Origin: Candidatus Iainarchaeum sp.
GTDB lineage: Archaea; B1Sed10-29; WALL01
NCBI GenBank assembly: GCA_021162685.1
Contig: JAGGYF010000035.1
Location: 1 to 37,363 of the forward strand
Length of the DNA stretch: 37,363 nt
Direction of reading: 5' to 3'
The notes under the pieces were generated by a model. That model worked only from the letters and a program-made list of their open reading frames with translations. It ran no database searches and had not been told where the DNA came from. Numbering within the stretch: the stretch's first letter is position 1; the number at the start of each line of letters is the position of its first letter. The position numbers and the translations under genes are program-made. Of the stretch, positions 1,782-28,597 are shown in pieces.

Positions 1782-2440
1782 TCCTAAAGAAAAAGGCAAA
1801 GAGTGTAGGGTATAAGGGATTTAAGGAATTTCAGAAGCAGGTAAAAAAGCAAGAAAAGCAAGCCAAGAAGATCAAAGAATGGCACCCAATTGAAAAGCGG
1901 TTTGAGAAGTATAAGCAAAAGGTTACGACAGAGGGAAGGAAAAAGGTGAAACTTTTTGGTACAGAGGTTATCGCGAATGAGGAAGAGGCGAGGATTGTTA
2001 AGAGATACCTTGAAGCAACAAGGGCAACAGAAGCATTTGGTGAGGTAAAAAAACCAGAGGAATTAGTAGGAGAGAAGATACCAGCAAGAGTTATGCGCAG
2101 AGCGATGAGGTATGACCAAGTTCTTAGGGAAATGGAGAATATAGAAGAAGGAGAACAAATACCAAGTATGGAAAGAGTTGAGGGCAAAGAGCCAGAGGAA
2201 GAAAGGCAATCAGTTATGCCCACTGAGCCACAACGGCCCAGGGGAGAGACAGAGGAGGTTATACAACCAATGACTGAAGACACTGAGGGAATGATGGTTC
2301 CTTTGGAGACTGAAACAGTGGAAAAGAGAGTATACAAAAGAGGAGTATATGTTAGTGGAGCAGGATTTGAGATTGGTGCCATACTTCCCATAATAATTAT
2401 ACTTGTAATACTTTTCATCATACTCAACTTCATAAGGTGA
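1778..2440 (+). CDS. Tail-anchored charged protein, 220 aa
   Basis: The ATG overlaps the previous stop in ATGA. Residues 1-190 are hydrophilic and rich in Lys/Glu, with a coiled-coil-like start (KEFQKQVKKQEKQAKKIKEW), an acidic Pro/Glu-rich middle and no recognised domain. Residues ~193-219 form one very hydrophobic segment (IGAILPIIIILVILFIILNF) followed only by Arg, which is the layout of a C-tail-anchored protein with its bulk in the cytoplasm. It lies between two coiled-coil genes, and the giant gene starts 4 nt after its stop. A plausible role is membrane anchor for the neighbouring coiled-coil proteins; that is inference from context. Confidence 0.85.
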   Translation: MILKKKAKSVGYKGFKEFQKQVKKQEKQAKKIKEWHPIEKRFEKYKQKVTTEGRKKVKLFGTEVIANEEEARIVKRYLEATRATEAFGEVKKPEELVGEKIPARVMRRAMRYDQVLREMENIEEGEQIPSMERVEGKEPEEERQSVMPTEPQRPRGETEEVIQPMTEDTEGMMVPLETETVEKRVYKRGVYVSGAGFEIGAILPIIIILVILFIILNFIR

Positions 2441-2444
2441 GGGA

Positions 2445-5400
2445 TTGCCACTGTTCAGAAAGAAGAGAAGGCCGTTTATATGGTTGAAACCTGGCGAAAG
2501 AAAAGCATACAAAAGAGTAGTGGATAGAAGACCGTTTCCAATAGGTATGAGGAAGCCCTATGAGCAGGTAAGGGGGCTGTTTGAAGAGGCAAGAGAGAGA
2601 GTACCAGAAAAAAGGCCGGAGGAGAAACCAAAGGGCATAGACATTGAGCGATTGAAAAGATTAACAGGGCAACCACCTAAAGAACAAGAGAGAGTACGAA
2701 TTGACATTGGTAAGTTGAAAGAGGCAGCAGAGCGACCAGAGGAGAAACCAAAGGGCATAGACATTGAGCGATTGAAAGCATTGGCAGAGCGACCCATAGA
2801 AATAGAGGTTCCAGAGGAAAGAGAGCTAACAGAAAGAGAGTTTATAGATACGCTCCGTTTTTACGTTGAGCACGGAAAACCAATCTCTGGATGGCTGAAA
2901 GCAAAGATAAGGGAAGGAGGGTATGACCTAGACAGATTAATGGAAGCAGCAGGCGTTCCACCAGAGGAAAAACCAGCGGCGCTTCCTCTACCAAAACCTG
3001 TACCTGTGAAACGTATTACACCATCTGAGGAGTTACCAGAAGAGAAGATTAGGGAGATTAGAGAAACAGAGCTAAGCAAAAATACCGTATACAATATATT
3101 TGAGCCATATGATATGAAGGTACTTTACCTCAACTTGATTTTGAATAAACCTAAGGAGATGCTACAAAATAGTCAATTTCTGCGTGATGAGATACGTGCA
3201 TTAGCTCAGAATGGGGAGTTACATGAAGAAAAGGCAAACAAGATTCTTAGCGAATTTGATACATTCAAAGAGCAGATTATTCCTATAGTGGAAGAGCACG
3301 GAAAGATACTTGTAGATGCAGAGAAAAAGCAAGAGAAGATACTTTCAAAGGTTGATGAAATAGAAACAAGTGTCAAAGAGCACGAAAGAACAATCAGTGA
3401 GTTAGAAAAAAGGCTTGGACAGACAAATCCAAATGAGATGAAAGAGCTCGGAGATGGATTAGTTGCTGCGATAGGAGATATGAGGAAGCAAAAGGAAGAA
3501 CTTGAAGCATTGACAAGGGAACTTAAAGAGAAGATTAAAGGCGACACCGTAGAGAGAGAAACAGAGGAAGCACGCAGAAAGCTTGAGGAGAAGATTACAC
3601 GTTTGGAAGGAAATTATGTATTACTAGAAGAGGCAGTTGACAAGCATCTAGATATGCTCTCAGAGAGTATGGAGAAACAGAGGATGCAGTTGGAACAGAG
3701 TGCCTCGCTCCTCAACGAAATGGTTAAGAAAGGAACATACTCATTAGAGGATGTACAAAAGGTTTCTGGTGTAGTAAAACAACTAAACGAAACAGAGAGA
3801 GAAAAAGAGGATAAGGAGAATTACGTTAAGCAGTATTCAGATGTTATAAAGTCAATGAGAAAAGGGGACAAGCTTAGCGAACTAGAGACACATCTAAATG
3901 GGCTTTCCGAGACTATTAAGAATACATCTATCCAACTAGAGGAAGCAGTAAACAGGATAATAGAATCAACCAAGCCACCGTTAACTCTTGCTAGGAGAAC
4001 AGCAGAACAGATTGGAAACGTATTAACTGGTTTGGAAGAGGATATAAAACCAGAAAGGAGAGTAATGTTGAAAACATTAGAACATTCTCTTGGGGAGTAT
4101 GACACGAGAATAGAGAATGCCGAGAGAGCAATTGAGCATTTAAATGAGTTAAATAAGTCATTTGATGTTGAGGATGAACTAAAAGATGCAAAAAAAATCA
4201 TTGAAAATTTGAGGGATTCTAGAAATAAAGCAGAAGAGACATTACGCAATATGAAGATGACATACGAAAGACTAGATGAGAAGAAGAAGCTGCTCTCTCC
4301 TGAAGACATACAAGAGATTGAGAGGGGACTTAATGCTCCAATAGACCATGTAAAGCCAGATGTGGCCATAGGGGCAATAGAGGATTATTTGAATAAGAAA
4401 CAAAGAGAGGGCATAAAAACAATTGAAAGGGTTGTAACAGATATCCGCACAAAAGGCGTCCCAGAGATTTCTGTTAGTATAGATGAACTAACAAAAGCTG
4501 TTGAGACATTAAAGAAAGCAGGTGTTCCTGGAGATGAGGTCAATGAACATCTTGAGAGGGTTAAGGGAGAACTTTTATCAAGAATGCAGAGGGACACAGA
4601 AGAACTTAAAAAACAGGTGGATTCAAGGACAATGAAGATTGAGGAAAAAATTTCGGAGATAGAAAGGGACCCAAGTGCGATTGATGAAGTAATCAAAATG
4701 AGGGAAGAAATAGAGGGATTTAAGGACAGGATAGATGAGATGGTTGCACTTCAGAAAGCAGCAGAAGAAAAAGGTGTTGAAGTTAAGGTTTCTCTTGATG
4801 AGATAAAACAAAGCGTTGAAGAGCTACCAAATGAAATTAATCAGAAGATAAAGGAGGCTGTGGAAAAACAGATAGTGCTGATGACTAAGCAGCATGAGGA
4901 AACAGTGAATAAAATAGATGAAGAGATGCAGAGACTTAGATTGGATCTTGGTGTAGCAAAAACATCTGAAGACATTGCTGAAATCAATTCAAGATTAAAT
5001 GAAATTCAAACCAAATACAGCGAGCAACTGAGAAAGATTAGCGAAACCATTGAAAAACTTAAAACTGAACCGACCGAAGAAGCCGTTGGAAGAACGTTAG
5101 AAGAATTAAACAAAAAGCAAGAGGACATTGAAAGCTCTATTAATGCGTTAAGGGCAGAGGTCTCCGAAACCCATTCAAAACTTTCTGAAATAAGTGATAT
5201 TGTTAGGAGGATTGAGAGCACTTTATCCGATTTACCAAAGTATGAATTACAGGAACTTCCTTCCAAGATGGATGAAATAAATGCTCAAATAAAGCTTCTA
5301 GCAGAGAAAGGCGTATCAGAAGAGAAGATCAATGAATTGAGAAGAAATCTAATTTCAGAGATGAGCAGGCGATTTGAGGAACAGACAAATAGGTTTGCTA

Positions 5401-8400
5401 GCACAGAGGAAAAGATTACTAGGAATATTGAGGAGATAAATGAAACAATTAAAAATCTAAGTGAAAGAATTTCAGAAGAAGGCGTTTCAGAGCAGATAAA
5501 CAAGCTTGTTGAGGCAAGGAGAGCCCTCTCAGAGGAATTGCAGAACTTGAGAAGAGCAGTAGACATACTAAAAGAGGTCTCGGGTAAAGAAATTGACCTT
5601 GGCGGTGTGGACGAACTAGTTAGGCAACATGAGGCAATAAAAGACGGCATTTCTGATTTGGTCAAGAAGCAAGAAGAATTGGGAAGAAAGATTGAGGAGA
5701 ATGAAACTAATACAGAACAAGCAATACAAGATGCAATGGATAAACTCTCTAGTGAACATAACACAATTATCTCTAGACTTACAGATATTGATGAAAGACT
5801 GGATGAAAATCTCACCAATATAAAATCGGCAGTTGAAAGGGAGGAGACGCTAGATACAGCAATGATTGAGAACATCAATAAGTCAGCAGAGCAGATTAAT
5901 AGGTTGAGGTATGAATTGGAAACAGTAAGAAAATCAATTGAAAATATCAGAGCAATTGGAGCCGACACAACAGAGCTTGAGAGAAAACAGAACGAAATTT
6001 TGAGAAGGATTGATGAGTATAAGGAGAGGCTTGAAGAAAAGGTCACTAAAGGATTCGAAGAGATACAAGATTTGGTTAATCAGAAAATTAATGATGTAAA
6101 TGCAAACATGGATGAAAAATATGAAAAATTTAAGAACCTTATCCTACAACTTCCATCAAACCCACAACTGATTGATGAAATAAGAGGAGCAAGGGACGAT
6201 ATAATAAAGACACGCAACGAATTAACTACGAAGTTAGATGTTATACAAAGAACAATTGACGATTTAAAACGAAATCCTCACTTCAAGCCGCCAGACACTT
6301 CTGGAATAGGGGAGAGATTACGTAACATTGAGGATTTGATTAGAAATGAAGCGGATAATGTTGTTAGCAGTGTTGTAGAAGAACATAAAAAGACAAGAGA
6401 GGACTTAGAAAGAAGAGCAGAAGAACTAGACAAGAAACTAGAGGATGCAATCAATAGACTAAAAAAACCTGGGATAACAGATGAAGAAAGGGAAGAGCTG
6501 GTCAGGGAAATAAAAAAGATTGCAGAAGATAAGGACAAAGTATATAAGCAATTATCTGAGTTATCAGAACAACTGAGCAATGTGAGTGCAGGACTTAGTG
6601 GCTTGGGCGCGAAGGTAGATGCGTTAAAAGATGAGCATAAAAAGTTGTCAGATGAGTTATCCCAGATCTCTAGAGCTACTACTGAAATCACCTCAATGCT
6701 TTCCAGATTAAGCACGAGAGTTGCAGAAAAAGAAGACATAGATGTGGTGGTCAGAAGGTTGGAGGAGCAAGGCGAAGAATTAACAGGACTTAGAGAGATG
6801 CTTGAAACATTTATCAAACAAGCAGAAGGAGGAATGCGGGAAGCATATATGGAAGACATCTTGAGGGAAGATGAGAGATGGAGAAAGGAGGTAGAGGAAC
6901 TGGAGAAGAAAGAGCGAGAATATGAAGAAACAGGTAAGGAACTGGATGAATTGAAAAAGGCCATTGAAGAATGGAAAAGAGAGGAAGTTGGTAGGCCTCC
7001 TGTGAGTGATGAGGAGATTAGAAAGGAAGTTGAGAAATTAGAGGAGCATAAGAAAGAGTTAGAAGAGATGAGCAAAGAGTTAGAAACGTTTACTTATGGA
7101 AGGGTCCGGTCATTAGTTGCTGAGGGGTATCCCGAGGAAGCAACTTCAGAACTAGAAACACTTGCAAGCCAGGGAAGATACAATGAATTTTTGGATAAGT
7201 ATGAAGAACTTGTTAGGACAGCTATAACTGCAAAGGGTATAATAGATAGGGTAATTGAATCCGTTCCAGAACATTTGAGGGGGAGAGCAATTGATACCAT
7301 AACCAAGCCAGAGGCAATGGCAACAATGGCGCCAGTTGAGATTGAAGACCTGGTAAAGAAGCAGGTTGAGTTGTTTTTAAGGGACGAATTAAACAAATTC
7401 TATGAAAAGAACAACGTATCAAGGGATTTGCAGACCTATCTTGATGCTCTGGTATCTGCTGGAACCATTACTCCGAAGGATGTATTAGAGCAGAGCGATA
7501 TTTACAAAAGGATTGTGAAGGATTTTGAGGAAGTGAAAAGGAAAAGGGAGTTGCCAGAGGAAGTTGTTAAAGCAGTTGGAAAGGAGAGGGTTGAGGTTCC
7601 AGAAGAACATATAATACCTGTTACGAACGTTCCGAAGATAAACGAAATAAAATCGGATGCAAGGCAGGTTCTTCCGAACGAAGTTGTTGACTCTGTGCCA
7701 GATTATGAAGTAAATCAAATGCTTGATAAAGAGAATGTTCCAAAGCGTATACAAGAGCAACTGAAGAGAATAGAAGAGAAAGTAGATAAAATAGAAGGGC
7801 TTTTGCGCGAAAAGAAGGAGGAGTTAGAGAAGGAATATCCAGATCCAGCAAGAATTGCCGAAATAAACAAAGCTATAGAAAAGGCAGAGGAAGACATAGA
7901 AAAGTCAAAATCAACTATTGTGATTGGAGCGTTTATGGCACCAGAGAAGAAAGAGGAGATAAAGAAAGCACTTGATGACGCTAAGGATATTGAGAGGAGA
8001 TATAAACGCCTTGAAAGGGTCAAATCACCGTATGACCTATTTGGGGCAGAGATTCTTGAGACTATGCCAAAAACCCTCTCAAAAGAGGACGTAGAGGAAA
8101 TAGTAAATCCTGAAGGCATTGAAGAAAGGATAGCATCACTTGAAACCCAGGTAAGAGACCTGAAAGACAGGATAATGGAGCGTTCCAAAGAACCAGAAAA
8201 GATTGATGAGTTGATTGAATCAATTGAGGAATTCAAGAAAGCATTGACAAAACTTGCATTAGAATCAAAAGTTATAGGAAGAAATGAAGAGCAAGTTAAG
8301 AAAATTATGGATACGATTAATGGACTTAAGTCGGAGATAGAAGATGTTAAGGCAATAACTCCTTCTATCACCTCGGATCAAATTAATAAGACAGCAGAGA

Positions 8401-11400
8401 ACTTGGCTTCTGGAGCGATTACACCAGAGGATGCAGAAAATAGACTAAATTACTTCATGGATATTATCAAAAAGCAGGGATTGGTTCCAGAATCTTCAGA
8501 GTACAGGCAATTAATTGATTCTGTGAACAGGTTGCGTGAAGCACTGGAAAAAACAAAACTGAATAATGCTCTAAAAATACTTGAAGAACCCAGCATTGCA
8601 GAGGAGTTATTATGGGTCCAATCACTAAGTCCAGACATGGAGGGAGCGGGAGAAGTATTCAAGAGGGTGCACGAAGCATTGTTTATAGGCGATGTTGAGA
8701 GGATAACACAAGCAGTTGAAGAAGCAAAACGCATACAACCAGATCTAGAGAGGTCAGTTAAAGATGCAACAGTTGTTGAAGATGAAATCTCAAAGGAAAT
8801 AGAATCATTCATACCCACAAAAGCAAGTGATGAGGATATTGTCCGTGTCAGAAGGGAAATGGAAAGAACAAATGAGAAAATAGAGGAATTGGGACTCCTT
8901 TCAGAAAAGCCAGTAGTAAAAGAAATGATTGACAGATTGCAGACCAAAATATCTATACTAAATGAATTGATTGAAGAAGCAGAAAGAAGAAAACTGGGGG
9001 AAGTTGCAAAATCAAAGCCAATAGAAGAAGTGCCAGAGGAAATACAAAAGAAATTGAACAAACTTGATAAAGAATGGGAATCAGTTGAAGAAAAAGTGGA
9101 TGCATTATATGATAGGCTTGCCGAGAAAGTTGCAGAACTGGAGACAAAATGGCAGTCCATTGACAATTACTATAACAACCTTATAACAATGCTTGAAGAA
9201 GCCATTAAGAAGATGCCAGATGCAGAAGATACACTAAGAAACAAAATAGATGAATTGAAGAAACAAAGAGAAGAATTCAGAGAAACAATTTCAAATCAAG
9301 CAGGAAGCATAATCTCTGAAACAGCTGCGCCCGTTGATGATGTTTATGAAATAGACGAGTTGATAACATACAACATAGAGAAAGGCAATGAGGAGGAAGT
9401 AAAGTCATTGGTAGATCGGCTTGGGAAAAAACAAGCTGAAGCATACAAGAAGATGGAAGAACTTACGGAGAAGGCTGAAGCAAAGCTCTCAGAACTTTCA
9501 GAGAAACTCAAGGAGCATGAAGCGTTTAGATATATGGAAGAGGTTTTACCAGTACTTACAAAGGATGAGAGGGATAGATTCTTTGAGAAGGCTGCATTGC
9601 AGAGGGGGAAGTATCTTGTGAAAGAACCGGAAAAGACACCATTTGATTCAACGCCCGAGAGCATAGATAGCTGGCTGAGTCATTGGAGAGTATATCTATC
9701 CCAGAAGAGGCTTACTGAAGAAGAGCTTAAAGAGATGGTAGAGAGACGTAAACAAAAAGTAAAGGAGGATGTGAAAAGAGGGGTAGTGCGATTTGAGATG
9801 AAAAAGAAAAAAGAACCTGTTAAAAGACTTGTGAAATCAGAACCTCTGTTTGAAGGACTCTACGCGAAGTTGAAAAGCTTTATGAATCCTGAGGATTTCA
9901 AGGCACTTGAAAATAGAGTGAATGAAAAAGCAAGGAGTGAGCCCGAAAAGACTACTGAAATTTTTGAGTCAGAAGTCAGAGAGGAGCTAAATATTCCAGA
10001 AGAGAAATTCATTATTGATGGCGTTGATGAGAAAGCAGAGGAAGTAAAAGAGAAAAGAAAGGAAGAGTTATCAAAGAAAGAACCAGCAAGAATACTACAA
10101 GAAACAATAAAAGATGCGGAAAAGGTTGTTGAGACAGAAGGTATTGATGTAACGCAGGAAGAGATGAAAACATATTTAGAGATGCTTCCGATATCAATAC
10201 TTAAAGGCATGGAAGAAAGCAGAGAAACTGCAGTAGACGGATTAAAGAGGAGTATTGAGAAACAAGGTTTGCCTTCAGAAAAAGCAGAAGAGATTGTCAA
10301 AATTGTAGAAACAAGGATTAGGGATGCAAAACCAGCTTTTGACAAACAACTTGGAAAGGATGTGACAGAGGAGAAGAAAAGGATTATAAATAAGATTCCA
10401 GAAGCATTGCATGAAACGATAAAGAAAAGGACAGGTGTTGAAAACCTTTTAGAACTTGATAAAGACTTCCTCCAGGAAAGATTAGATGCCATAGAATTCA
10501 TTCAAAACACGTTCTTGCCTAGGTTCCCCGAAGCAGTAAAGTCTTTGAAAGAAAAGGTAAAAGTTCCTTTGGCATTGGTTTCTTTGGATGTTTTAAAGAA
10601 GGAATATGAAAAGGCAGAAAAGAAACGTGAGAAAGAAAATGAAGAGTTTTTGGATAGGCTTTCAGGCTGGGCTCAAGGTCTTCCTCCTGAAGTCTATTTA
10701 ACACCTGAAAAGAAGCCAACGATAGATGAAGCAATGTCAATTGCAAAACGGGCATTGAAGAAGATAGGGGAAGAATGGAAACTAAGTGAGGATACCTACA
10801 AAGCAGTTGAAAAAGGCGTTTCTGAATTTGTTGGTGCGCATGCTGGCAAATATAACACTACTAAGGAGTTGTATGATGCAATTATGACACATGCAGAGAT
10901 TATAAAGAGCAACTACTTGTGGGATTGGTTTGAGGAGTTTAGGGCATGGGCGATGAAACCCATTGAGAAACCAGTTGAAGTAAAAAAACCAGAGGTGAAA
11001 AAAGGCATATTAAGTCCAGAAGATGAAGCGTTCCTCCAGGGAATTCTTGATTGGGGAAAAGTGGTAGAAAAGCCTTTAGAAGCAACAGAATTCATGGTGA
11101 ATACTGCACTAACGTATTACATGAGTTCGCCGTTTAAGGAAGCCACTGATAAACTTCTAAGACAAGTTGGGATGTACAGAAATGAGAGGATGAGAAGGTC
11201 GCTAAAAGAAAAGGTGTTTAAGCAACTGTTTGAGAGAGCAACACAGTTTGAAAAAGCAAAACGCCTTTTTGAGGGCATATCCAGAGACAAACTTATAGAT
11301 GCTACTAGGTATATAGAGACAGCAAATAGAATGGTTGAAACAGCAATAAAGGAGAACAGAATAGGGGACGCAATAGATGTACTTGTGGACGAACTTAAGA

Positions 11401-14400
11401 GGTTCCCAGAGCATAGAACTGAAGAGGAAAGAAAGGCCATTAATGACCTCTTATCCAAATTAAGTGAGAAGAAGACAACGAACATCAAGGAAAAGACTGA
11501 AGAATGGATTGAACGTGTTGACAATGCATTTATTGAGGCACAAGGAGGGGAGCCAGAGCTAGAGCCGCCACCAAAAGAAGTGATAGATTACATCAAATCA
11601 AAGATGGAGGAAGGAAGGGATATAGAGCAAGCAATAGATGAATTAGAAGCAGAGACAGGCATTTCAATACCTGTTAGGGAGATAATAAGAGCAACCATTG
11701 AAAGAGAAGCATTTGAGATGCCAGAAGAGGATATTGAATCCCTTTACGGTAAACTAAATACGCTCTCTTCTCTTGGTATGCATGAAGAATCAGCAGAAGT
11801 CGCTAAAAAGATCATTGATCAAAGTCCAGGCGATTTTCTAATCCGTAGGATAAGAGTGGAAGAACTGTATAATGCAGGTAAGGTAAATGAGGCAATGAAA
11901 GAACTTGAGCAATACATAAAAGAAGCAGAGGAGAGGAATCCACCCTCTGTTAGCATGCTAGAAAATCTAAAAAGAAAGATCATAAAGGATACTAAGGAAT
12001 ACAAACAGATGAAAAGGTGGATTGAGGACCTACGCAAGACTGCAAGTATTCATGATTTGGGATATAATGCACTTATGAAGTTGTGGGAGGAAGGAAAGCT
12101 AACAAGAAAGGACGTAGAGAAAACGACAAAGCTATATGATCTATGGCGTAATATTGGAATGAATGAATATGTTCCTCCAGATGATAGAACACCACTGCAA
12201 AATGAGATTGCAGATGTAATAGAAGCCATAGGCCGAGGTGAAGAAGTAGATGATAGAATCAGAAACATAAAAGAGGAAGTGGAGGAAGTACATAGAAAAC
12301 AGGAGGAAGAAGCAAAAGAAGCAGAGGAATTTCTTGAAGAGATTTTAGGGGAAGCAACAGCAGAGACACTGAAAGAAGAGGCGGAGGAGCTTCTACAAAC
12401 AAACGACCTTGAACAAATAGCGAACTTCTTTGAAAAACATGGCGATGAAATAGAAGAGAGTGCTCCAGAGGTCTATAACAAACTTGAAAACTACTATAAA
12501 ACAAAACTTGCCATAGATGCATTGAACGAAATAAACAGAGGAGAAAACGTAGATAAAAACATCCTACTTTTAACATACCGCTACGAAGATTTCAAAGACT
12601 CCCTTGAAACACTTGGCAGGCATGATATTCTAGACGAAATGGAACGTGTTCTCAAAGAGAGAGGATATGAAATTGAGAAACCAACAGCAGAGACACTAAA
12701 AGAACAGGTGGATAGAGTCCTACAAACAAAAGACACTGAAAAAATAGGGTTCTTCCTTAGAGTGCATGGCGATGAAATAAAAAAGATTGATAAGGACCTT
12801 TACGACAGACTTTCACGCCTTCAGCTCAACACAAAACTTGCCATGGGCATATTGGATGAAATAAACAGAGGAGAAAACGTAGATGAAAACGTTAAGTATC
12901 TGGCAGAGCATTACGAAGGCATCAAAGACTCCCTTGAAACACTTGGCAAACATGATATTCTAGACGAAATGAAACGCGTTCTCAAAGAACATGGGTATGA
13001 AATTGAGAAACCAACTGAGGCAGAGTTGATACGTGTTGCGAGTATACATGATATTGCGAAAGAGCCAGAAAAATATGAATTCAGGGAGGACAGAAAGTTT
13101 ATCGTAAGGAAGAAGGGCACAAAAGCAGTGCAGGGTTACAAGTTGCATATATCCGCAAATGAGGAGAACTATGAGGAAGTATTCAAGACTGTAGCCCCAA
13201 TTGTTGAAAAATATGATATAGGATATAAGTTCGTGAAACCAGAGGAATTTGTAAACGCAAGAGAAACAGAGAACATCTATGGGAAGTTTATAACAATATA
13301 CACAGAGAACCCAGAACAAGCAGCAGCGATTGCAAAGGAAGTTGATGAAGCACTAGCAGAAAAAGATATAGCCACAGGCAGGAAGATAAAAGGGGACAAA
13401 CCATTACCAAACGGAAAATCTGGCCTAGTGTTCTACAGATATGGTGTCTATGATATGTCAATGCCTGGCTATGTTCATCCAGATGGATTAAAACAATACC
13501 AAGAAAGCGTCAGAAAATCTAAGGAAATGGGCCTTATACCACTATCACTAAGAAGTTGGCTAGATTTTGAGAGGAGGCAAGGAAGAAATTGGATAATTCC
13601 TGAGGAAAAGGATAGGAACGGTGTGCCAACAAAGGCAATTCCAGGTTTCCTTGAAAAGGATGAGCTAGAGGAAATGCTTACGAGAAAACCAGTTACACTT
13701 GATAGAGAGCATATAGCGCTCGCTGAAAAACTTGGATTAGATGCGGATAAGCTTAACGAAGAGCAGAAGGAAGCACTGGTCTATGCACAAAAAGCACTGG
13801 AGCTTGCTGAGGAAAACGGAGGAACAGAATGGAAAGAGGACAGATTGAGATTATTGACAGATTATAAGGATAGGGTAGAGAAAAAAGCCTACGAACTTTT
13901 GCTAAATGAATTGCAGATGAAAGCAGATGATTGGTGGGTAGGGAAAAGGCAATTATCTGTTGAGAGTGATGCACAAAGTCTTATAAGGGCATATCTCAAA
14001 GATGGTAAAGTGCCTGATGTAGATGAGATAACAAAAATCATCTATAGAGGCAGACCAAAGAAATGGCTTGAGAAAAAAGGGATGACGCAAGAAAAAATTA
14101 GAGAAATCGTTGAAGAGAGAGTTAAAGCAGAGGAAAAAAACTTAGAGGACGCTGAGAAGAGAGAAGGCGTTGTAAAGGTATTTGTTTATGGAACACTAGA
14201 GAGGCCCGGTTTCCTTGAGGAGATGGGAATCAACATAGATAATGTATCTTTCGTACGTGCTGTAGTACCTGGATTAAAGGCAACGTATCATGGTGGCCTT
14301 ATGAATGATAAATGGGCAAATCCTGTGAAGGCAGATGGAGAGGTATTGAGAGGGACAATCCTCTACATGAGACCAGAGGACTTTGAGAAGATGAAGAAGA

Positions 14401-14867
14401 ACGAGAGATTCTACGAATTTGGAGGTCAGGATGAGGTTGCTGAGTTAGAGAATGTAACTGCACTTGGAAGAAAGATTCCAGGTGTTAAGATATTCTATAA
14501 GAAGGATTATTATGAAATGAGCCCAGAGGAACTTGCGAAAGAAGATATAAAGCAGATGAAAAGTTATCTAGAATGGGGAAGGCGCATTATTAGCGAAGTC
14601 GATAATGACACTATTAAGAAGCTCGCAGAAATGGATCTCGGATCCTTTATAGGCATGGATGCAAGAGATATGTATAAACGTTTGAGGTTAGAATGCGAAA
14701 AGCGCGGGATTGATTTTAGAAAGATAGATGCATTTGACCCCTACTCAACAAGAGAACGCTTCTTTGAGTTGTGTTTGGCTGCAAAGGAGAAGATGGGGGA
14801 AGACGTGAGTAGGTATTTAGAAGAAGAAAAGGCAGTAGAAAAGGAAATTAATAAAAAAGAAGCCTGA
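2445..14867 (+). CDS. Giant coiled-coil protein (4,140 aa) with phosphothreonine-lyase-like and GGCT-like domains
   Basis: The start is TTG at 2445, with GGTGAG overlapping the previous stop as ribosome-binding site. Order: residues 1-~165, basic, with three degenerate GIDIERLK repeats; ~190-1550, long Glu/Lys-rich coiled coil; ~1550-3090, further helical segments; ~3095-3175, TPR-like hairpins; ~3305-3523, two GYEIE modules; ~3540-3670, a domain resembling OspF/SpvC/HopA1/LanKC lyases; ~3908-4030, a gamma-glutamylcyclotransferase/AIG2-like domain (FVYGTL, then KNERFY). In the lyase-like domain, K3566 and H3568 (YKLHIS), K3595 (YKFVK), R3606, Y3619 (ITIYT) and R3665 (FYRYG) match, in order, the catalytic and phosphate-binding residues known in SpvC (K104, H106, K136, R148, Y158, R213). 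There is no signal peptide or membrane segment. A zinc-ribbon sequence continues in the +1 frame past the stop. Domain calls are from motif memory, without a search. Confidence 0.85.
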   Translation: MPLFRKKRRPFIWLKPGERKAYKRVVDRRPFPIGMRKPYEQVRGLFEEARERVPEKRPEEKPKGIDIERLKRLTGQPPKEQERVRIDIGKLKEAAERPEEKPKGIDIERLKALAERPIEIEVPEERELTEREFIDTLRFYVEHGKPISGWLKAKIREGGYDLDRLMEAAGVPPEEKPAALPLPKPVPVKRITPSEELPEEKIREIRETELSKNTVYNIFEPYDMKVLYLNLILNKPKEMLQNSQFLRDEIRALAQNGELHEEKANKILSEFDTFKEQIIPIVEEHGKILVDAEKKQEKILSKVDEIETSVKEHERTISELEKRLGQTNPNEMKELGDGLVAAIGDMRKQKEELEALTRELKEKIKGDTVERETEEARRKLEEKITRLEGNYVLLEEAVDKHLDMLSESMEKQRMQLEQSASLLNEMVKKGTYSLEDVQKVSGVVKQLNETEREKEDKENYVKQYSDVIKSMRKGDKLSELETHLNGLSETIKNTSIQLEEAVNRIIESTKPPLTLARRTAEQIGNVLTGLEEDIKPERRVMLKTLEHSLGEYDTRIENAERAIEHLNELNKSFDVEDELKDAKKIIENLRDSRNKAEETLRNMKMTYERLDEKKKLLSPEDIQEIERGLNAPIDHVKPDVAIGAIEDYLNKKQREGIKTIERVVTDIRTKGVPEISVSIDELTKAVETLKKAGVPGDEVNEHLERVKGELLSRMQRDTEELKKQVDSRTMKIEEKISEIERDPSAIDEVIKMREEIEGFKDRIDEMVALQKAAEEKGVEVKVSLDEIKQSVEELPNEINQKIKEAVEKQIVLMTKQHEETVNKIDEEMQRLRLDLGVAKTSEDIAEINSRLNEIQTKYSEQLRKISETIEKLKTEPTEEAVGRTLEELNKKQEDIESSINALRAEVSETHSKLSEISDIVRRIESTLSDLPKYELQELPSKMDEINAQIKLLAEKGVSEEKINELRRNLISEMSRRFEEQTNRFASTEEKITRNIEEINETIKNLSERISEEGVSEQINKLVEARRALSEELQNLRRAVDILKEVSGKEIDLGGVDELVRQHEAIKDGISDLVKKQEELGRKIEENETNTEQAIQDAMDKLSSEHNTIISRLTDIDERLDENLTNIKSAVEREETLDTAMIENINKSAEQINRLRYELETVRKSIENIRAIGADTTELERKQNEILRRIDEYKERLEEKVTKGFEEIQDLVNQKINDVNANMDEKYEKFKNLILQLPSNPQLIDEIRGARDDIIKTRNELTTKLDVIQRTIDDLKRNPHFKPPDTSGIGERLRNIEDLIRNEADNVVSSVVEEHKKTREDLERRAEELDKKLEDAINRLKKPGITDEEREELVREIKKIAEDKDKVYKQLSELSEQLSNVSAGLSGLGAKVDALKDEHKKLSDELSQISRATTEITSMLSRLSTRVAEKEDIDVVVRRLEEQGEELTGLREMLETFIKQAEGGMREAYMEDILREDERWRKEVEELEKKEREYEETGKELDELKKAIEEWKREEVGRPPVSDEEIRKEVEKLEEHKKELEEMSKELETFTYGRVRSLVAEGYPEEATSELETLASQGRYNEFLDKYEELVRTAITAKGIIDRVIESVPEHLRGRAIDTITKPEAMATMAPVEIEDLVKKQVELFLRDELNKFYEKNNVSRDLQTYLDALVSAGTITPKDVLEQSDIYKRIVKDFEEVKRKRELPEEVVKAVGKERVEVPEEHIIPVTNVPKINEIKSDARQVLPNEVVDSVPDYEVNQMLDKENVPKRIQEQLKRIEEKVDKIEGLLREKKEELEKEYPDPARIAEINKAIEKAEEDIEKSKSTIVIGAFMAPEKKEEIKKALDDAKDIERRYKRLERVKSPYDLFGAEILETMPKTLSKEDVEEIVNPEGIEERIASLETQVRDLKDRIMERSKEPEKIDELIESIEEFKKALTKLALESKVIGRNEEQVKKIMDTINGLKSEIEDVKAITPSITSDQINKTAENLASGAITPEDAENRLNYFMDIIKKQGLVPESSEYRQLIDSVNRLREALEKTKLNNALKILEEPSIAEELLWVQSLSPDMEGAGEVFKRVHEALFIGDVERITQAVEEAKRIQPDLERSVKDATVVEDEISKEIESFIPTKASDEDIVRVRREMERTNEKIEELGLLSEKPVVKEMIDRLQTKISILNELIEEAERRKLGEVAKSKPIEEVPEEIQKKLNKLDKEWESVEEKVDALYDRLAEKVAELETKWQSIDNYYNNLITMLEEAIKKMPDAEDTLRNKIDELKKQREEFRETISNQAGSIISETAAPVDDVYEIDELITYNIEKGNEEEVKSLVDRLGKKQAEAYKKMEELTEKAEAKLSELSEKLKEHEAFRYMEEVLPVLTKDERDRFFEKAALQRGKYLVKEPEKTPFDSTPESIDSWLSHWRVYLSQKRLTEEELKEMVERRKQKVKEDVKRGVVRFEMKKKKEPVKRLVKSEPLFEGLYAKLKSFMNPEDFKALENRVNEKARSEPEKTTEIFESEVREELNIPEEKFIIDGVDEKAEEVKEKRKEELSKKEPARILQETIKDAEKVVETEGIDVTQEEMKTYLEMLPISILKGMEESRETAVDGLKRSIEKQGLPSEKAEEIVKIVETRIRDAKPAFDKQLGKDVTEEKKRIINKIPEALHETIKKRTGVENLLELDKDFLQERLDAIEFIQNTFLPRFPEAVKSLKEKVKVPLALVSLDVLKKEYEKAEKKREKENEEFLDRLSGWAQGLPPEVYLTPEKKPTIDEAMSIAKRALKKIGEEWKLSEDTYKAVEKGVSEFVGAHAGKYNTTKELYDAIMTHAEIIKSNYLWDWFEEFRAWAMKPIEKPVEVKKPEVKKGILSPEDEAFLQGILDWGKVVEKPLEATEFMVNTALTYYMSSPFKEATDKLLRQVGMYRNERMRRSLKEKVFKQLFERATQFEKAKRLFEGISRDKLIDATRYIETANRMVETAIKENRIGDAIDVLVDELKRFPEHRTEEERKAINDLLSKLSEKKTTNIKEKTEEWIERVDNAFIEAQGGEPELEPPPKEVIDYIKSKMEEGRDIEQAIDELEAETGISIPVREIIRATIEREAFEMPEEDIESLYGKLNTLSSLGMHEESAEVAKKIIDQSPGDFLIRRIRVEELYNAGKVNEAMKELEQYIKEAEERNPPSVSMLENLKRKIIKDTKEYKQMKRWIEDLRKTASIHDLGYNALMKLWEEGKLTRKDVEKTTKLYDLWRNIGMNEYVPPDDRTPLQNEIADVIEAIGRGEEVDDRIRNIKEEVEEVHRKQEEEAKEAEEFLEEILGEATAETLKEEAEELLQTNDLEQIANFFEKHGDEIEESAPEVYNKLENYYKTKLAIDALNEINRGENVDKNILLLTYRYEDFKDSLETLGRHDILDEMERVLKERGYEIEKPTAETLKEQVDRVLQTKDTEKIGFFLRVHGDEIKKIDKDLYDRLSRLQLNTKLAMGILDEINRGENVDENVKYLAEHYEGIKDSLETLGKHDILDEMKRVLKEHGYEIEKPTEAELIRVASIHDIAKEPEKYEFREDRKFIVRKKGTKAVQGYKLHISANEENYEEVFKTVAPIVEKYDIGYKFVKPEEFVNARETENIYGKFITIYTENPEQAAAIAKEVDEALAEKDIATGRKIKGDKPLPNGKSGLVFYRYGVYDMSMPGYVHPDGLKQYQESVRKSKEMGLIPLSLRSWLDFERRQGRNWIIPEEKDRNGVPTKAIPGFLEKDELEEMLTRKPVTLDREHIALAEKLGLDADKLNEEQKEALVYAQKALELAEENGGTEWKEDRLRLLTDYKDRVEKKAYELLLNELQMKADDWWVGKRQLSVESDAQSLIRAYLKDGKVPDVDEITKIIYRGRPKKWLEKKGMTQEKIREIVEERVKAEEKNLEDAEKREGVVKVFVYGTLERPGFLEEMGINIDNVSFVRAVVPGLKATYHGGLMNDKWANPVKADGEVLRGTILYMRPEDFEKMKKNERFYEFGGQDEVAELENVTALGRKIPGVKIFYKKDYYEMSPEELAKEDIKQMKSYLEWGRRIISEVDNDTIKKLAEMDLGSFIGMDARDMYKRLRLECEKRGIDFRKIDAFDPYSTRERFFELCLAAKEKMGEDVSRYLEEEKAVEKEINKKEA
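2619..2777 (+). repeat. Direct repeat at the 5' end of the giant gene
   Basis: An identical ~39-nt stretch occurs at 2619-2657 and 2739-2777, exactly 120 nt (40 codons) apart, encoding EEKPKGIDIERLK. A third, diverged copy (RVRIDIGKLK) lies between them. It is a short internal duplication in the basic N-terminal region. Confidence 0.85.
12357..12683 (+). repeat. GYEIE module, copy B
   Basis: 109 codons, from TAETLKEEAEELL to GYEIEKP. It is directly followed by copy C and closely similar to copy A at the window start (for example DLEQIANFF and NEINRGENVD in both). Predicted all-helical, of unknown function. Confidence 0.85.
12684..13013 (+). repeat. GYEIE module, copy C
   Basis: 110 codons, from TAETLKEQVDRVL to GYEIEKP. 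Its 3' third is nearly identical in DNA to copy A, more so than to adjacent copy B (LKEHGYEIE against LKERGYEIE), suggesting exchange between the two genes. It leads directly into the lyase-like domain. Confidence 0.85.
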
Positions 14868-20801: not shown

Positions 20802-21086
20802 CTATAATAGTCCTGTACTCATCATTCTACGCAGCGTTATTATGAAAATACCAATACTGATTATGAAGTAGAGTAGAGGGATAACCTCTTTAAACAATGG
20901 AAGTTTTTCAGATGAAAAGACTATGGCATCAATAATTGCCCAGACAGAAGATAATACATAGATCTGATAGGTAAACGCACTCACCAACTTTCTCCTATAA
21001 TGTTTTAGCCTCATAGATACTACTCCTAGGAATATGAACATTGCAATCAGGAAGAGAATAGTCCTGCCAAGGGCAAGTATATTCAT
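20802..21086 (-). CDS. Small membrane protein, three TM segments, 94 aa
   Basis: Three hydrophobic segments are visible (residues ~5-25, ~37-58, ~68-86) with short basic connections and no soluble domain. It overlaps the stop of the upstream 3-TM gene in ATGA and is the last gene of the operon 7TM sensor - KaiC-like ATPase - 3-TM - 3-TM. Size and spacing suggest it could work as one half of a split 6-7 TM unit with its neighbour, resembling the 7TM input regions of archaeal histidine kinases. I recognise no named family. Confidence 0.75.
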   Translation of the reverse strand: MNILALGRTILFLIAMFIFLGVVSMRLKHYRRKLVSAFTYQIYVLSSVWAIIDAIVFSSEKLPLFKEVIPLLYFIISIGIFIITLRRMMSTGLL

Positions 21087-21349
21087 ATGTATCCCTCCAC
21101 CTTGCTATAGTAGATTCCCATGATGATAAGCAAAAAGGCAATCATTGTTTCTGATGTTTGGACAGCGGCATCCCATTCAAAAAATGTAAAGAAGTGGAAT
21201 AGCATCATCCAGAAAACAATCAATGTGAGAAGAGAAGATAGGTACATATACCTCTTTTTTGGCACTCTTCTCACTTTGGATGTAAGATATAGCATGAGTA
21301 CAAATGTTGCAAACATTAATGAGCCATTAACCACCCATATTGTCTCCAT
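21083..21349 (-). CDS. Small membrane protein, three TM segments, 88 aa
   Basis: The chosen ATG at 21349 has GGTGGT three bases upstream, just after the stop of the KaiC-like gene; a longer frame from 21421 would overlap that gene. Three hydrophobic segments (WVVNGSLMFATFVLMLYL; YLSSLLTLIVFWMMLFHFF; TSETMIAFLLIIMGIYY) fill nearly the whole protein. It is followed by a second 3-TM protein of similar size with a 4-base overlap, suggesting a paired membrane unit. No family recognised. Confidence 0.75.
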   Translation of the reverse strand: METIWVVNGSLMFATFVLMLYLTSKVRRVPKKRYMYLSSLLTLIVFWMMLFHFFTFFEWDAAVQTSETMIAFLLIIMGIYYSKVEGYI

Positions 21350-21357
21350 ACTACCAC

Positions 21358-22059
21358 CTATGCAAAGAACTCCTCTACTTTGACCTCCAATCCTTTCTCT
21401 GTAAGAGAAAAGTTGATCCACTTGAGTGGGTGTCTTGTATCAAGCATCCTCACTACCCTAAGCCTTCTTTGCCCATCTTTTAATACCATTTCAATTGTAC
21501 CGTCGCATACGTAATCAAGTGTAGAAACAACCCTTTCATTGTGTAAACCTTCTTCTAACACAACCATTGCGATAGAATTGTTTGTTTTGATTGTTCCACT
21601 AAATACTTGGAGGAATTTGAACACGCTCTTTTCATCCCCATACATAAGGAAATCTGATATAGAGTCTATGATTACCCGTGATGGAAGTTTTGTCTTTTTT
21701 AATCCCTCTTTTACAAGTTCGTTCAACTCATTTAGCTCAAGAAGGGAGTGTAACCTTGCAACTCCTTCTTCGTTTTTCAGTTCTCTTCTGGGAGTCCTCC
21801 AGGAATAGCAATCTATGAAAAACACATTTTTCAATATCTCTTTGTTTCCACCACAATAGTCTACTAACACCTTTTTTATATGCGAAACAGGCTCTCCCGT
21901 AACGATGTAGATGGCAAATTCCCTGTTTTCTAAGCCTTTACATATGAATTGCTTACAGAATGTTGTTTTTCCAGAACCTGGTGGGCCTCTTAAAAGCAGT
22001 ACTGCTTTTGATGGAAACCCTCCTCCTAATAATTTGTCAATTCCGGGCACTCCTGACAC
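21358..22059 (-). CDS. KaiC/RadA-superfamily ATPase (KaiC-like, single domain)
   Basis: A RecA-fold ATPase of 233 aa. The N-terminus has the family's GVPGIDKLLGGGFP lead-in, followed by Walker A GPPGSGKT (residues ~25-32) and Walker B SRVIIDSISDFL. The usual EE dyad after Walker A is reduced to GE (IVTGEPVSH), so ATP hydrolysis may be weak or altered. The GTG at 22059 is the only standard start near the family's N-terminus, but the strong AAAGGAGGGA motif lies about 20 bases further upstream, so an unusual start a few codons earlier is possible. It follows a 7TM sensor and precedes two 3-TM proteins, suggesting a membrane-linked signalling role. Confidence 0.85.
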   Translation of the reverse strand: MSGVPGIDKLLGGGFPSKAVLLLRGPPGSGKTTFCKQFICKGLENREFAIYIVTGEPVSHIKKVLVDYCGGNKEILKNVFFIDCYSWRTPRRELKNEEGVARLHSLLELNELNELVKEGLKKTKLPSRVIIDSISDFLMYGDEKSVFKFLQVFSGTIKTNNSIAMVVLEEGLHNERVVSTLDYVCDGTIEMVLKDGQRRLRVVRMLDTRHPLKWINFSLTEKGLEVKVEEFFA

Positions 22060-22076
22060 ACGTCGCTTGTTTATCT

Positions 22077-22742
22077 TTATCCCTCCTTTAAACTAAATGC
22101 ATACATAAAAAACATACCCATTAATGTGGATGCAATGCCAGTTAAAGGTGTTGAGGCAATTCCTAGCAATGGGAGGAAGGCAGTTATTGTAATGATGCTA
22201 ACAAACAATGCAACACCGGAAAAGATTAGTAGTATTCTCTGCTTGTTTATCTTTTTCACAAGGGATGACTCTAGCTTATATATGAGATAGAGAGAGTAAG
22301 CATTTACTAGTATAACATATTCCAAATAAATCCATATCAATGGACCAAATTCCATCACATATCCATACGCGATGTGCTTTATGGATACAACCATTGTTTT
22401 AGTGAACAGGACAAAAACAGAGAGCAACCCAGGTATTGCGTAAAAGCTTATGGGCAGTTCCCTATCAAAAAAACGTTCAACAAAGTGTAGTAGAAACATT
22501 GCGGAGAACGCGGCAAATACATATGCGCTCCTAACCAGGAGTAATGCATAAGGAGGATGGGAAATCCTAAGAATCATCTCAGATGCATTCCATGCAACAA
22601 CGCACGCAAGTGCAAAAATAAATGGCGGATGATATCGCGTTTTCTTTATTTTGGGTATGAGATAAAGAAGAAGGCCCAGGTTCACAAAAAATCCAATCAT
22701 TGAGAAGATTGCAAGGAATCGCATGATTGATTTTAGGGACAT
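22077..22742 (-). CDS. Stand-alone 7TM sensor protein (histidine-kinase N-terminal 7TM-like)
   Basis: About seven hydrophobic helices span almost the whole 221 aa, with no kinase, HAMP or GGDEF domain attached. The pattern resembles the 7TM input region found at the N-terminus of archaeal histidine kinases. I chose the ATG at 22742: the frame opens at 22787, but that ATG lies inside the TATA palindrome (22771-22782) and the one at 22763 is too close to it. At 22742 the expected transcript start (~22751) leaves a short leader with AAGGAG. It is the first gene of the operon with the KaiC-like ATPase and diverges from the PAS-kinase operon. Confidence 0.75.
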   Translation of the reverse strand: MSLKSIMRFLAIFSMIGFFVNLGLLLYLIPKIKKTRYHPPFIFALACVVAWNASEMILRISHPPYALLLVRSAYVFAAFSAMFLLHFVERFFDRELPISFYAIPGLLSVFVLFTKTMVVSIKHIAYGYVMEFGPLIWIYLEYVILVNAYSLYLIYKLESSLVKKINKQRILLIFSGVALFVSIITITAFLPLLGIASTPLTGIASTLMGMFFMYAFSLKEG

Positions 22743-22770
22743 CTCCTTATAAACCTTTTCCATGCAAAAG

Positions 22771-22782
22771 TATATTAATATA
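22771..22782. promoter_or_regulatory. Palindromic TATA box shared by divergent signalling operons
   Basis: TATATTAATATA is a perfect 12-bp palindrome. Its centre is ~25 bases from the ATG at 22802 on the plus strand (leaderless start) and ~34 bases from the chosen ATG at 22742 on the minus strand. One symmetrical element could therefore place TBP for both operons, coupling or competing their expression. Confidence 0.6.
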
Positions 22783-22801
22783 GTCATTACTAGAAAAGAG
22801 T

Positions 22802-24505
22802 ATGAACGCTTCTCTTACTGCAATGTTTAAAGCGCATAGGAAAACGATGGGGAAACAGTTGGAAGAAACACTTGTTTTGTTGCTAAGAAAATATAAGAAG
22901 AAGATAGCAAGGGAGTGGGCAACTAGACTCAAAGAAATTGCAGAAAGTAGAGGACAAAGACTCTCGTTCCCAAAGCACAAGCAGAGATTTGAAAAGGTCG
23001 TTGAGTATATAACAGAAGAAATAGAGACAGGGGAGACAGAACAACTCAAGCGCTTTTTTCTAACCATCGCGAAGAGAAGTCCAAGTTTTGGGTTTTCAAT
23101 TGAGGAGGTACATATCGGATTTTCTGTGTTAAAGGAGGTAATGTATGAGATTATTGAGGAGAATACCTCAAAGCCAGAGCAGGTAAAATTGCGTAGATTA
23201 TTCAGACGTGTTGTTGATGGAGATACTATACTACTGGCAAAGGCATTTCTGGGTGTAAGAGAAGAAGAGTTGAGGACATCAGAAGAGAAGTATAGGTTTT
23301 TAGTTGAAAATTCAACAGATACAATATTTACTATAGGTTTAGATGCAAAATTCTCTTTTATCAATAAGCATGGAATAAGAACCAGTGGGTTTAGTGAGGA
23401 TGAACTTGTTGGCAAACCATTTACAAAGATTATACCGAAAAAGGATAGAAAAAAAGCAATGGGGATATTCAGACAGGTTATGCAGGGAAAAACCATACGG
23501 AATGTTGAATTGCCTGTTTTGCACAAAAATGGCGAAGTTGTAATTATGGAATTTAGAGCAAAACCAATCTACAAGGAAGGAAAGAGTATTGGGGGCATAG
23601 GTGTTGGGAGGGATATAACAGAACGTAAGAAGATGGAAAAACAACTAAGAGAAACAACAGAGCGATTGAAGAAGATATTGATGGATTCTACAGTATCAAT
23701 AATTATTGTAGATAAAAAAGGTCACATAGAGATATTCAACAAAGGTGCGCAGAAACTTACAGGATATTCCCAAACTGATGTTGTTGGTAAGCCAGTAGAT
23801 ATCTTGTTCTCTGGCGAAGATAAAAAGGTAATAGTAGAATTGTTAAAAACCAAAGCTAGGGCAAAGGGGATTGAGGCAGTATTCAGAAAAAAGAACGGGA
23901 AAACAGTTCCTGTTGCACTTTCTATATCCAACCTATACGGAAATCAGAAAAATCCTTCTGGGGCAATAATCATTGCCATAGATGTTTCAAAGATAGAGCG
24001 AATAAAACAAGAATTAGTTAGAGAGAGGGACTTTGCTAAAAAGATTATAGAAACTTCTCCTTCTCTCATCGTTGTTCTGGATAAACGTGGGAGGATATTG
24101 CTTCTGAATAAATGGGCTGAGAAGATATTGAAATGTGACAGAGAGAAGTATATTGGAAAAAGTTGGTTTACGCATTTCCTCAGGAAAGAGGATATTATAC
24201 CCCTGAAAAAATACTTCAAGGAACTTTTGAAAGGCAATGTCAAACACAGACACAGAAGTAGGGTAGTAACAACAGATGGAAAGACCCGTACAATTGAATG
24301 GGACAATGCAATCATATATGACGAAAAAGGCGACATAGAAATGATTATCAGCATAGGCAGAGACATCACAGAACAGTTGCGCTTAGAGGAAGAATTAAAG
24401 AAAAGGTTAAAAGAGCTTGAAACATTTAAGAAATTTGCTGTTGGCAGGGAGTTGAGAATAATTGAACTAAAAAACAGGATAAAGCAGTTAGAGGCAATAA
24501 GATGA
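22802..24505 (+). CDS. Multi-PAS sensor protein with RsbR-type N-terminus, 567 aa
   Basis: Residues ~15-150 form a helical region resembling the N-terminal sensor of RsbR/RsbRD proteins (KKKIAREWATRLKEIA ... GFSIEEVHIGFSVLKEVMYEII). Three PAS domains follow, at ~160-275, ~288-400 and ~410-525, the first and last ending in the typical GRDITE motif. No kinase, HAMP or output domain is attached and no membrane segment is seen. A C-terminal coiled coil ends at the stop, which overlaps the ATG of the histidine kinase (ATGA). It therefore looks like the detached sensory half of a split PAS-kinase. What it senses cannot be read from the sequence. Confidence 0.9.
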   Translation: MNASLTAMFKAHRKTMGKQLEETLVLLLRKYKKKIAREWATRLKEIAESRGQRLSFPKHKQRFEKVVEYITEEIETGETEQLKRFFLTIAKRSPSFGFSIEEVHIGFSVLKEVMYEIIEENTSKPEQVKLRRLFRRVVDGDTILLAKAFLGVREEELRTSEEKYRFLVENSTDTIFTIGLDAKFSFINKHGIRTSGFSEDELVGKPFTKIIPKKDRKKAMGIFRQVMQGKTIRNVELPVLHKNGEVVIMEFRAKPIYKEGKSIGGIGVGRDITERKKMEKQLRETTERLKKILMDSTVSIIIVDKKGHIEIFNKGAQKLTGYSQTDVVGKPVDILFSGEDKKVIVELLKTKARAKGIEAVFRKKNGKTVPVALSISNLYGNQKNPSGAIIIAIDVSKIERIKQELVRERDFAKKIIETSPSLIVVLDKRGRILLLNKWAEKILKCDREKYIGKSWFTHFLRKEDIIPLKKYFKELLKGNVKHRHRSRVVTTDGKTRTIEWDNAIIYDEKGDIEMIISIGRDITEQLRLEEELKKRLKELETFKKFAVGRELRIIELKNRIKQLEAIR

Positions 24506-25422: not shown

Positions 25423-25432
25423 TGGTGGTGAT

Positions 25433-25807
25433 ATGGGCAACATATTGATAGTGGAAGATGAGCCTGATATGGCAAGAACTATTCAAATTATGTTGGAGAG
25501 TGAAGGTTATTCAACAGAAATAGCAGAGAATGTAGACAAAGCAATGAACATACTCAAAACAAAAGGTGCGGACCTTGTTCTGTTAGATATTATTCTGCCA
25601 CAAGTGCATGGAGATGTTTTACTCAAAAAGATGCAGAAGTCAGAGAAACTAAAGAAAGTACCAGTGATTGTTGTTACAGTTGTTGACCCTGTAACAGGCA
25701 TTAAAGAGGATATGAAAGAGATAAAAAAAGATGTAGGTTTCATATCCAAACCATTCAAAAAAGAACATCTTTTGAGGGAAGTAAAACAAAGATTAAAGGA
25801 CAACTAA
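25433..25807 (+). CDS. Single-domain response regulator (CheY-like receiver), 124 aa
   Basis: A receiver domain without an output domain. The acidic pair is E8/D9, the phosphoacceptor D52 (LLDIILP), with T82 and K106 (SKPF) completing the active site. The ATG at 25433 follows GGTGGTGAT. It is the probable partner of the upstream kinase. Lacking a DNA-binding domain, it must act by protein contact, as single-domain receivers commonly do in Archaea. Confidence 0.95.
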   Translation: MGNILIVEDEPDMARTIQIMLESEGYSTEIAENVDKAMNILKTKGADLVLLDIILPQVHGDVLLKKMQKSEKLKKVPVIVVTVVDPVTGIKEDMKEIKKDVGFISKPFKKEHLLREVKQRLKDN

Positions 25808-25837
25808 GAGCAGAGGTAGTGTAATATATAGACTAAC

Positions 25838-26629: not shown

Positions 26630-26638
26630 ATAACCACT

Positions 26639-27331: not shown

Positions 27332-27363
27332 TATACCACCATTTTTTACTTATGAATTGCCCC

Positions 27364-27375
27364 TATTTAAATATA
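27364..27375. promoter_or_regulatory. Bidirectional TATA element between ureohydrolase and KaiC-like genes
   Basis: TATTTAAATATA contains the palindrome TATTTAAATA. Its centre is ~26 bases before the plus-strand ATG (27396), predicting a leaderless ureohydrolase mRNA, and ~38 bases before the minus-strand ATG (27331), leaving a short leader with GGTGGT. A second AT-rich stretch at 27381-27391 could also contribute. Confidence 0.55.
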
Positions 27376-27395
27376 TCATATGTATAAATATAGTT

Positions 27396-28592: not shown

Positions 28593-28597
28593 ACTAG

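Follow-up and report, generated by a model that had tools for sequence, protein, structure and literature searches.

A predicted kinase-uncoupled phosphothreonine lyase domain of the LanKC type in a giant coiled-coil protein of an archaeon

Injected bacterial effectors and lanthipeptide synthetases are the known users of phospho-elimination, in which phosphate is removed from modified serine or threonine and a reactive double bond is left. In synthetases of the LanKC and LanL type, the lyase domain is followed by a fused kinase, and a LanC-like cyclase domain is present. In class V lanthipeptide synthesis, the lyase may be encoded separately from the kinase (PMC9486802); the dehydratase of this class (LanY/HopA1 with LanK/APH) has a partner kinase of the APH type. 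SpvC- and LanL-like lyases have been stated to occur only in bacteria; the same study proposed BLES03-like proteins as archaeal phosphothreonine lyases, from fold comparison and gene neighbourhood (PMC4159009). Class II lanthipeptides have been described in archaea in a paper that leaves LanKC unmentioned (PMC10105419). Here we describe an archaeal domain that differs from those of LanKC in its setting: it is found towards the C-terminal end of a giant protein that is mostly coiled coil.

The stretch of DNA that was analysed (37,363 bases, called the window throughout) is a whole contig of a 1.11-Mb archaeal genome that is 98% complete. The 23S, 16S and RNase P genes on this contig are all of archaeal type, in agreement with the archaeal origin that the initial annotation had assumed for the protein; family membership suggests a species within the Diapherotrites (Iainarchaeota). 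Three consecutive genes on the + strand, P0002, P0003 and P0001, form an operon that fills the first 15 kb (Table 1). The reading frame of P0001 starts with TTG, is directly preceded by a GGTGAGG-like ribosome-binding sequence and continues for 4,140 codons without interruption. For the C-terminal part of P0001 and for P0002, no relatives outside the species were found in the 20-40 neighbouring genomes searched. The same contig carries LeuRS-like and AlaRS genes and, between tRNA synthetase and rRNA genes (window 20802-28601), a set of signalling genes: a PAS sensor, a histidine kinase, a response regulator, a 7TM sensor, a V4R protein and two KaiC-like ATPases.

Table 1. Features of the P0002-P0003-P0001 gene row and of the predicted lyase domain (window positions; residue numbers are those of P0001)
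Feature	Position	Strand	Description
P0002	3..1781	+	592 aa; upstream in operon with P0001; runs off contig start
11 QPTEE units in P0002	285..536	+	acid-flanked threonines; candidate substrate array only
P0003	1778..2440	+	220 aa; hydrophobic (transmembrane-like) C-terminal tail; 4-base overlap with P0002 stop
P0001, giant ORF	2445..14867	+	4,140 aa, mostly charged coiled coil
Main coiled-coil stretch, aa 301-2400	3345..9644	+	3.5-residue hydrophobic periodicity
Two tandem ~110-aa helical repeats	12357..13013	+	directly N-terminal to lyase domain; 61% mutual identity
Modelled lyase domain, aa 3525-3745	13017..13679	+	AlphaFold pLDDT 82.5, pTM 0.76
RamC_N (PF25816) match, aa 3543-3672	13071..13460	+	profile match
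K3566	13140..13142	+	counterpart of SpvC K104 / ThurKC K65; 62/62 rows
H3568	13146..13148	+	counterpart of SpvC H106 / ThurKC H67 (protonates leaving phosphate)
K3595	13227..13229	+	counterpart of SpvC K136 / ThurKC K94 (catalytic base); 62/62 rows
R3606	13260..13262	+	unconserved position, earlier taken as R148
K3614	13284..13286	+	counterpart of ThurKC K117, position of SpvC R148; 62/62 rows
Y3619	13299..13301	+	counterpart of SpvC Y158 / VenL Y108; 62/62 rows; role from PMC2843593
D3651	13395..13397	+	counterpart of ThurKC D152 / SpvC D201
R3665	13437..13439	+	counterpart of SpvC R213 / ThurKC R163 (phosphate binding); 62/62 rows
Possible GGACT/AIG2-like region	14178..14414	+	PF06094, 14.6 bits, under cut-off 22.8

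The coiled coil that had been read from the sequence is borne out by a periodicity test: each block of aa 301-2400 has a hydrophobicity period of 3.5 residues (z of 4 to 11 versus shuffles), and no such period is present in aa 3601-3900. The helical repeat of about 110 residues is common to P0001 and P0002 (copy at 3-275, 70% identity), with no further copies in the genome. Cysteine is very rare in P0001, with two among 4,140 residues. Close to the C-terminus, the possible GGACT/AIG2-like region contains a VFVYGTLERPGF motif along with its sub-threshold profile match; it has no sequence match in the PDB and its single-sequence model (pLDDT 38) was too poor for a fold search. A GGACT domain was not accepted, as the match is sub-threshold and lacks a PDB relative.

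The Pfam family RamC_N, the lyase domain of LanKC and LanL, matches P0001 with 65.2 bits (E 7e-18) when the whole protein is searched and with 69.9 bits (E 2.6e-19) when the domain is isolated, at a cut-off of 27. The Pfam families of OspF/SpvC/VirA and of HopA1/LanY match neither P0001 nor the domain at E <= 1, and by sequence the nearest branch is LanKC (RamC_N). A phmmer search of all PDB chains gave 12 matches, all to class III/IV lanthionine synthetases or to deposits of these that are named as kinases, the best being SalKC (6e-5) and ThurKC (1.2e-4). The AlphaFold model of the domain was built on an alignment of 62 rows, 49 of them of LanKC type, and therefore draws partly on the same evidence as the profile match. 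In a Foldseek search of the PDB with this model, all 24 matches below E 1e-3 are ThurKC, CuvL, SalKC, OspF, VirA, SpvC or PneKC: E-values to the LanKC lyase domains, OspF, VirA and SpvC range from 2e-8 to 1e-4, and for OspF, VirA and SpvC alone from 5e-6 to 1e-4. Weaker matches are HopA1 effectors (E 0.01-0.04) and then eIF4E proteins (about 0.5); eIF4E is a fold relative of these lyases (PMC4159009). TM-scores on the query are moderate (0.42-0.52), partly because the query carries linker at both ends. An unrelated fold had been named beforehand as the outcome that would speak against the initial annotation, and what AlphaFold and Foldseek returned was this lyase superfamily. Thus, profile, PDB sequence matches and predicted fold agree with the claim of a SpvC/OspF/LanKC/HopA1-like domain in a giant archaeal coiled-coil protein, and support placing it in the LanKC/OspF/SpvC/HopA1 lyase superfamily.

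The active site is well conserved. The strings YKLHIS, YKFVK, GKFITIYT and FYRYG, on which the initial annotation was based, are indeed found at aa 3565-3667 (G3564 corresponds to window 13134), far beyond chance. In the conservation alignment of 62 domains (49 LanKC-type and 13 archaeal or standalone rows), seven positions are invariant in every row and all seven are kept in P0001 (G3564, K3566, K3595, G3613, K3614, Y3619 and R3665), although this domain is on average only 24% identical to the LanKC-type rows. H3568 and D3651 are kept too: the H3568 column has H in 49/49 LanKC-type and in 9/13 archaeal or standalone rows, with R in the remaining four, and the D3651 column has D in 49/49 LanKC-type rows and an acidic residue (D or E) in each of the 13 others. 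K3566 and H3568 are located on strand 39-46 of the AlphaFold model (model numbering), K3595 on 70-73, K3614 and Y3619 on 90-96 and R3665 on 138-144; these four are its main strands. The earlier statement that all key residues are kept holds for K3566, H3568, K3595, Y3619 and R3665. It does not hold for R3606, which had been aligned with SpvC R148: this position is R in only one of 13 archaeal or standalone rows and in five of 49 LanKC-type rows. Column conservation rules R3606 out and the ThurKC structure points to the invariant K3614 in its place: the counterpart of SpvC R148 is ThurKC K117, the lysine of GKFIT (PMC10604976). Mutation of core active-site positions of ThurKC, including those corresponding to H3568 and D3651 (H67 and D152), impairs or abolishes dehydration (PMC10604976), and each core active-site residue of ThurKC that is supported by mutagenesis has a match in P0001, R191 excepted; R3714 (in GRNWIIP) is our guess for the counterpart of R191.

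The domain differs from the LanKC-type lyases in the spacing of two of these residues. K3595 and K3614 are 19 residues apart, and the distance between base lysine and GKFIT lysine is 18-21 residues in 13/13 archaeal or standalone rows versus 23 (once 24) in 49/49 LanKC-type rows, a set that consists of the remaining hits of the genome scan (mostly ORFs of 650-1,000 aa, a few shorter, with a kinase domain not proven in each). In ThurKC, the loop from K108 to K117 approaches the activation segment of the kinase, and it is absent in SpvC and OspF (PMC10604976). The stretch is four residues shorter in P0001 than in LanKC-type domains, as is expected if the kinase-contact loop is missing. This spacing serves as a sequence mark: without exception among the rows studied, it told kinase-uncoupled lyases apart from those of LanKC type. 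When a tree is constructed from 96 columns of the domain, with the stretch of the kinase-contact loop excluded, the P0001 domain pairs with that of Diapherotrites RS_17_2 (97% SH-aLRT), this pair is joined, with less support (81%), by Nanohaloarchaeal standalone domains and two from bacteria, and a poorly supported branch (66) has all LanKC-type rows on one side.

P0001 is not the sole archaeal case, but a member of a sporadic family whose other archaeal proteins are short. Of 394 genomes sampled as relatives, about 10 have RamC_N matches, 8 of them over the cut-off; carriers make up 2/19 genomes in the own phylum and 5/28 in the Nanohaloarchaeota, the pattern of a sporadically inherited module. 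The archaeal carriers are Diapherotrites RS_17_2, Nanohaloarchaea M3_22 (two copies) and genomes G355, G322, G398, G399, G262, G097, G351, G268 and G030. Most of their proteins have about 257-330 aa and no other Pfam domain (whole range 257-556 aa); none has a kinase or LanC match, and the aligned rows have the short lysine-lysine spacing together with the invariant columns. The kinase-less form thus recurs. In contrast to P0001, none of these proteins has thousands of coiled-coil residues. The only close relative known is the 451-aa protein of Diapherotrites RS_17_2, with 46% identity to the P0001 domain over 117 aa.

As had been claimed, P0001 has no kinase or cyclase domain: searches with Pfam profiles gave no Pkinase match and no LanC-like cyclase domain. 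In the whole genome, the Pkinase model finds only a 233-aa and a 276-aa protein, both under the cut-off and, judged by eye from their sequences, Bud32-like and RIO-like. The LANC model has no match in this 98%-complete genome, and neither has the APH model, which finds a match in 13 of 14 control genomes. No obvious phosphorylating partner is encoded next to P0001. The two cysteines argue against thioether rings within P0001. Acid-flanked threonines are found in P0002, where T[DE][DE] sites are enriched (11 observed, 1.5 expected from shuffles); the QPTEE array is encoded by a degenerate 24-bp tandem repeat, and the contig starts inside this gene. An acidophilic kinase could phosphorylate these threonines, but a role of the array as substrate is speculation.

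We consider it probable that aa ~3525-3745 of P0001 are a catalytically competent, kinase-uncoupled pThr/pSer lyase module of the RamC_N type that is tethered to a scaffold. With residue roles as proposed earlier (PMC2843593), the reaction would be a metal-independent beta-elimination from pThr or pSer of a partner protein that a separate kinase would have phosphorylated: K3614 and R3665 would bind the phosphate, and the carbonyl would be polarised by K3566 and Y3619. K3595 would act as the base that abstracts the alpha proton, and H3568, with the aid of D3651, would donate a proton to the phosphate as it leaves, so that dehydrobutyrine or dehydroalanine results. Coiled coil and helical repeats may serve as a tether or scaffold that places the module in the cell, perhaps with a link to the membrane through P0003. 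A far-reaching version, in our view rather improbable, is a physiological pThr lyase, neither effector nor part of lanthipeptide synthesis, that remodels the archaeon's own structural proteins, for example by converting pThr of the QPTEE units of P0002 to dehydrobutyrine and so creating permanent electrophilic sites for cross-linking. The partners proposed for such cross-links are lysine or other nucleophiles, because the giant protein has almost no cysteine.

The main rival to a catalytic module is a phospho-reader, a domain that binds pThr or pSer without elimination and docks the giant coiled coil on phosphorylated partners. The scaffold-like context, the R that replaces the catalytic H in four archaeal relatives and the genome, in which no dedicated Ser/Thr kinase and no enzyme using the product was seen, fit such a reader. 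A pure reader is, however, expected to keep the phosphate-binding residues and to lose the catalytic ones, and the P0001 domain has kept the base K3595, the acid H3568, Y3619 and D3651 as well; this argues against it and we regard it as unlikely. Somewhat less likely still is that the archaeon is host-associated and that, like SpvC, OspF and HopAI1, the lyase targets phosphoproteins in a host or in a competing cell. Injected effectors are among the fold neighbours, several archaea with RamC_N belong to the DPANN and Nanohaloarchaeota are host-dependent (PMC6642349); the sporadic distribution, with 2/19 carriers in the own phylum and 5/28 in the Nanohaloarchaeota, and the position of one relative beside a Fic gene and of another in a CBASS island are also consistent with an effector. 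Yet no signal sequence is apparent by eye at the N-terminus of P0001, no gene next to it was recognised as serving secretion, export of a 4,140-aa coiled coil is unlikely and there is no indication of a host for this Diapherotrites species.

The module could also be proposed to belong to lanthipeptide (RiPP) synthesis, or to be left over from it, with a pathway of class III/IV or a split one of the class V kind, since lanthipeptide lyase domains are the nearest characterised relatives by sequence and class V provides a precedent for a lyase apart from its kinase (PMC9486802). Neither LANC nor APH has a match in the genome, however, P0001 has no kinase domain and only 2 cysteines in 4,140 aa, and the kinase-contact loop is missing: we rejected this pathway for the absence of LanC, APH and fused kinase and for the scarcity of cysteine, and consider it very unlikely. 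The probability of a chance resemblance, or of a relation in fold only without functional meaning, is negligible. Charged coiled-coil proteins produce many weak false profile matches, and the highly charged sequence of P0001 does so too, but the domain is not part of the region that resembles a coiled coil (aa 3601-3900 lack the 3.5-residue period) and scores 65 bits against a cut-off of 27, with all invariant columns kept and a clean fold search. RamC_N score, PDB sequence search, fold search and residue conservation together refute a chance match.

The predicted lyase module is thus most like LanKC/LanL: the RamC_N profile is far over its cut-off, the catalytic positions of ThurKC are present except R191 and the best structural matches are to these enzymes. 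It differs by the absence of kinase and cyclase in P0001 and of LanC in the genome, and from the class V dehydratase by the absence of an APH-type partner among the genome's matches. With OspF/SpvC/VirA and HopA1/LanY it shares the predicted fold and, via ThurKC, the catalytic residues (PMC10604976); unlike in OspF/SpvC, the position of SpvC R148 is a lysine, as in LanKC, and P0001 has no effector context. BLES03-like proteins are similar in their proposed elimination activity in archaea, whereas the P0001 domain is LanL-like by plain sequence profile. The RamC_N family itself is an established one with a Pfam entry. Apparently new relative to the literature found are the archaeal LanL-type lyase, the kinase-uncoupled form with its sequence mark and the mounting on a giant coiled coil; no paper on this arrangement was found in the literature searched, with most subscription papers outside its scope. 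An archaeal LanL-like lyase that is freed from kinase and cyclase and carried on a giant scaffold implies that phosphate may be removed irreversibly as a process within ordinary archaeal cells or between archaea. The domain of the window and those of Diapherotrites RS_17_2 and Nanohaloarchaea M3_22 make up a small set of testable proteins.

Viral contigs scanned with two sequences of the Diapherotrites family contain no relative; when the standalone type was the query, the scan yielded a single LanKC, next to a phage-like region. There was no match among phage records. A viral origin was rejected, given no relatives on viral contigs or phage records beyond this one LanKC. The plasmid matches listed are LanKC-like, kinase-named or hypothetical genes. 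The surroundings of the standalone domains are diverse. In Nanohaloarchaea M3_22 (CP046106, region 312000-323000; positions 1199-6045), one copy lies inside a defence island with a TGT-like gene, a CBASS nucleotide cyclase (PADLOC 1e-106), a 2TM effector, a VRR-NUC nuclease and an unnamed 224-aa gene that is ADP-ribosyltransferase-like by eye. The RamC_N protein of G355 adjoins a Fic-domain gene (L099, 8291-9873). In the Nanohaloarchaeota genome G399 (L111, 748-2415, - strand), the RamC_N match (36.7 bits) of a 556-aa protein is preceded by a coiled coil, and a stretch at the C-terminus of this protein looks JAMM/MPN peptidase-like by eye, without a Pfam hit. Bacterial standalone domains with short spacing are found in a 181-aa protein of a Competibacteraceae MAG (L036, 7807-9224), directly preceded by an ORF that is YbiA/NADAR-like by eye, and in a 394-aa protein (88.6 bits) without kinase or LanC domain of a Paracaedibacteraceae MAG (L020, 7405-8586). 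Paracaedibacteraceae are a lineage of intracellular symbionts. RamC_N-like domains are also present in Mycoplasma leonicaptivi and Mycoplasmopsis felis (L059 and L062), in frames, read with TGA as W, of 251 aa and at least 402 aa, the latter running off its contig.
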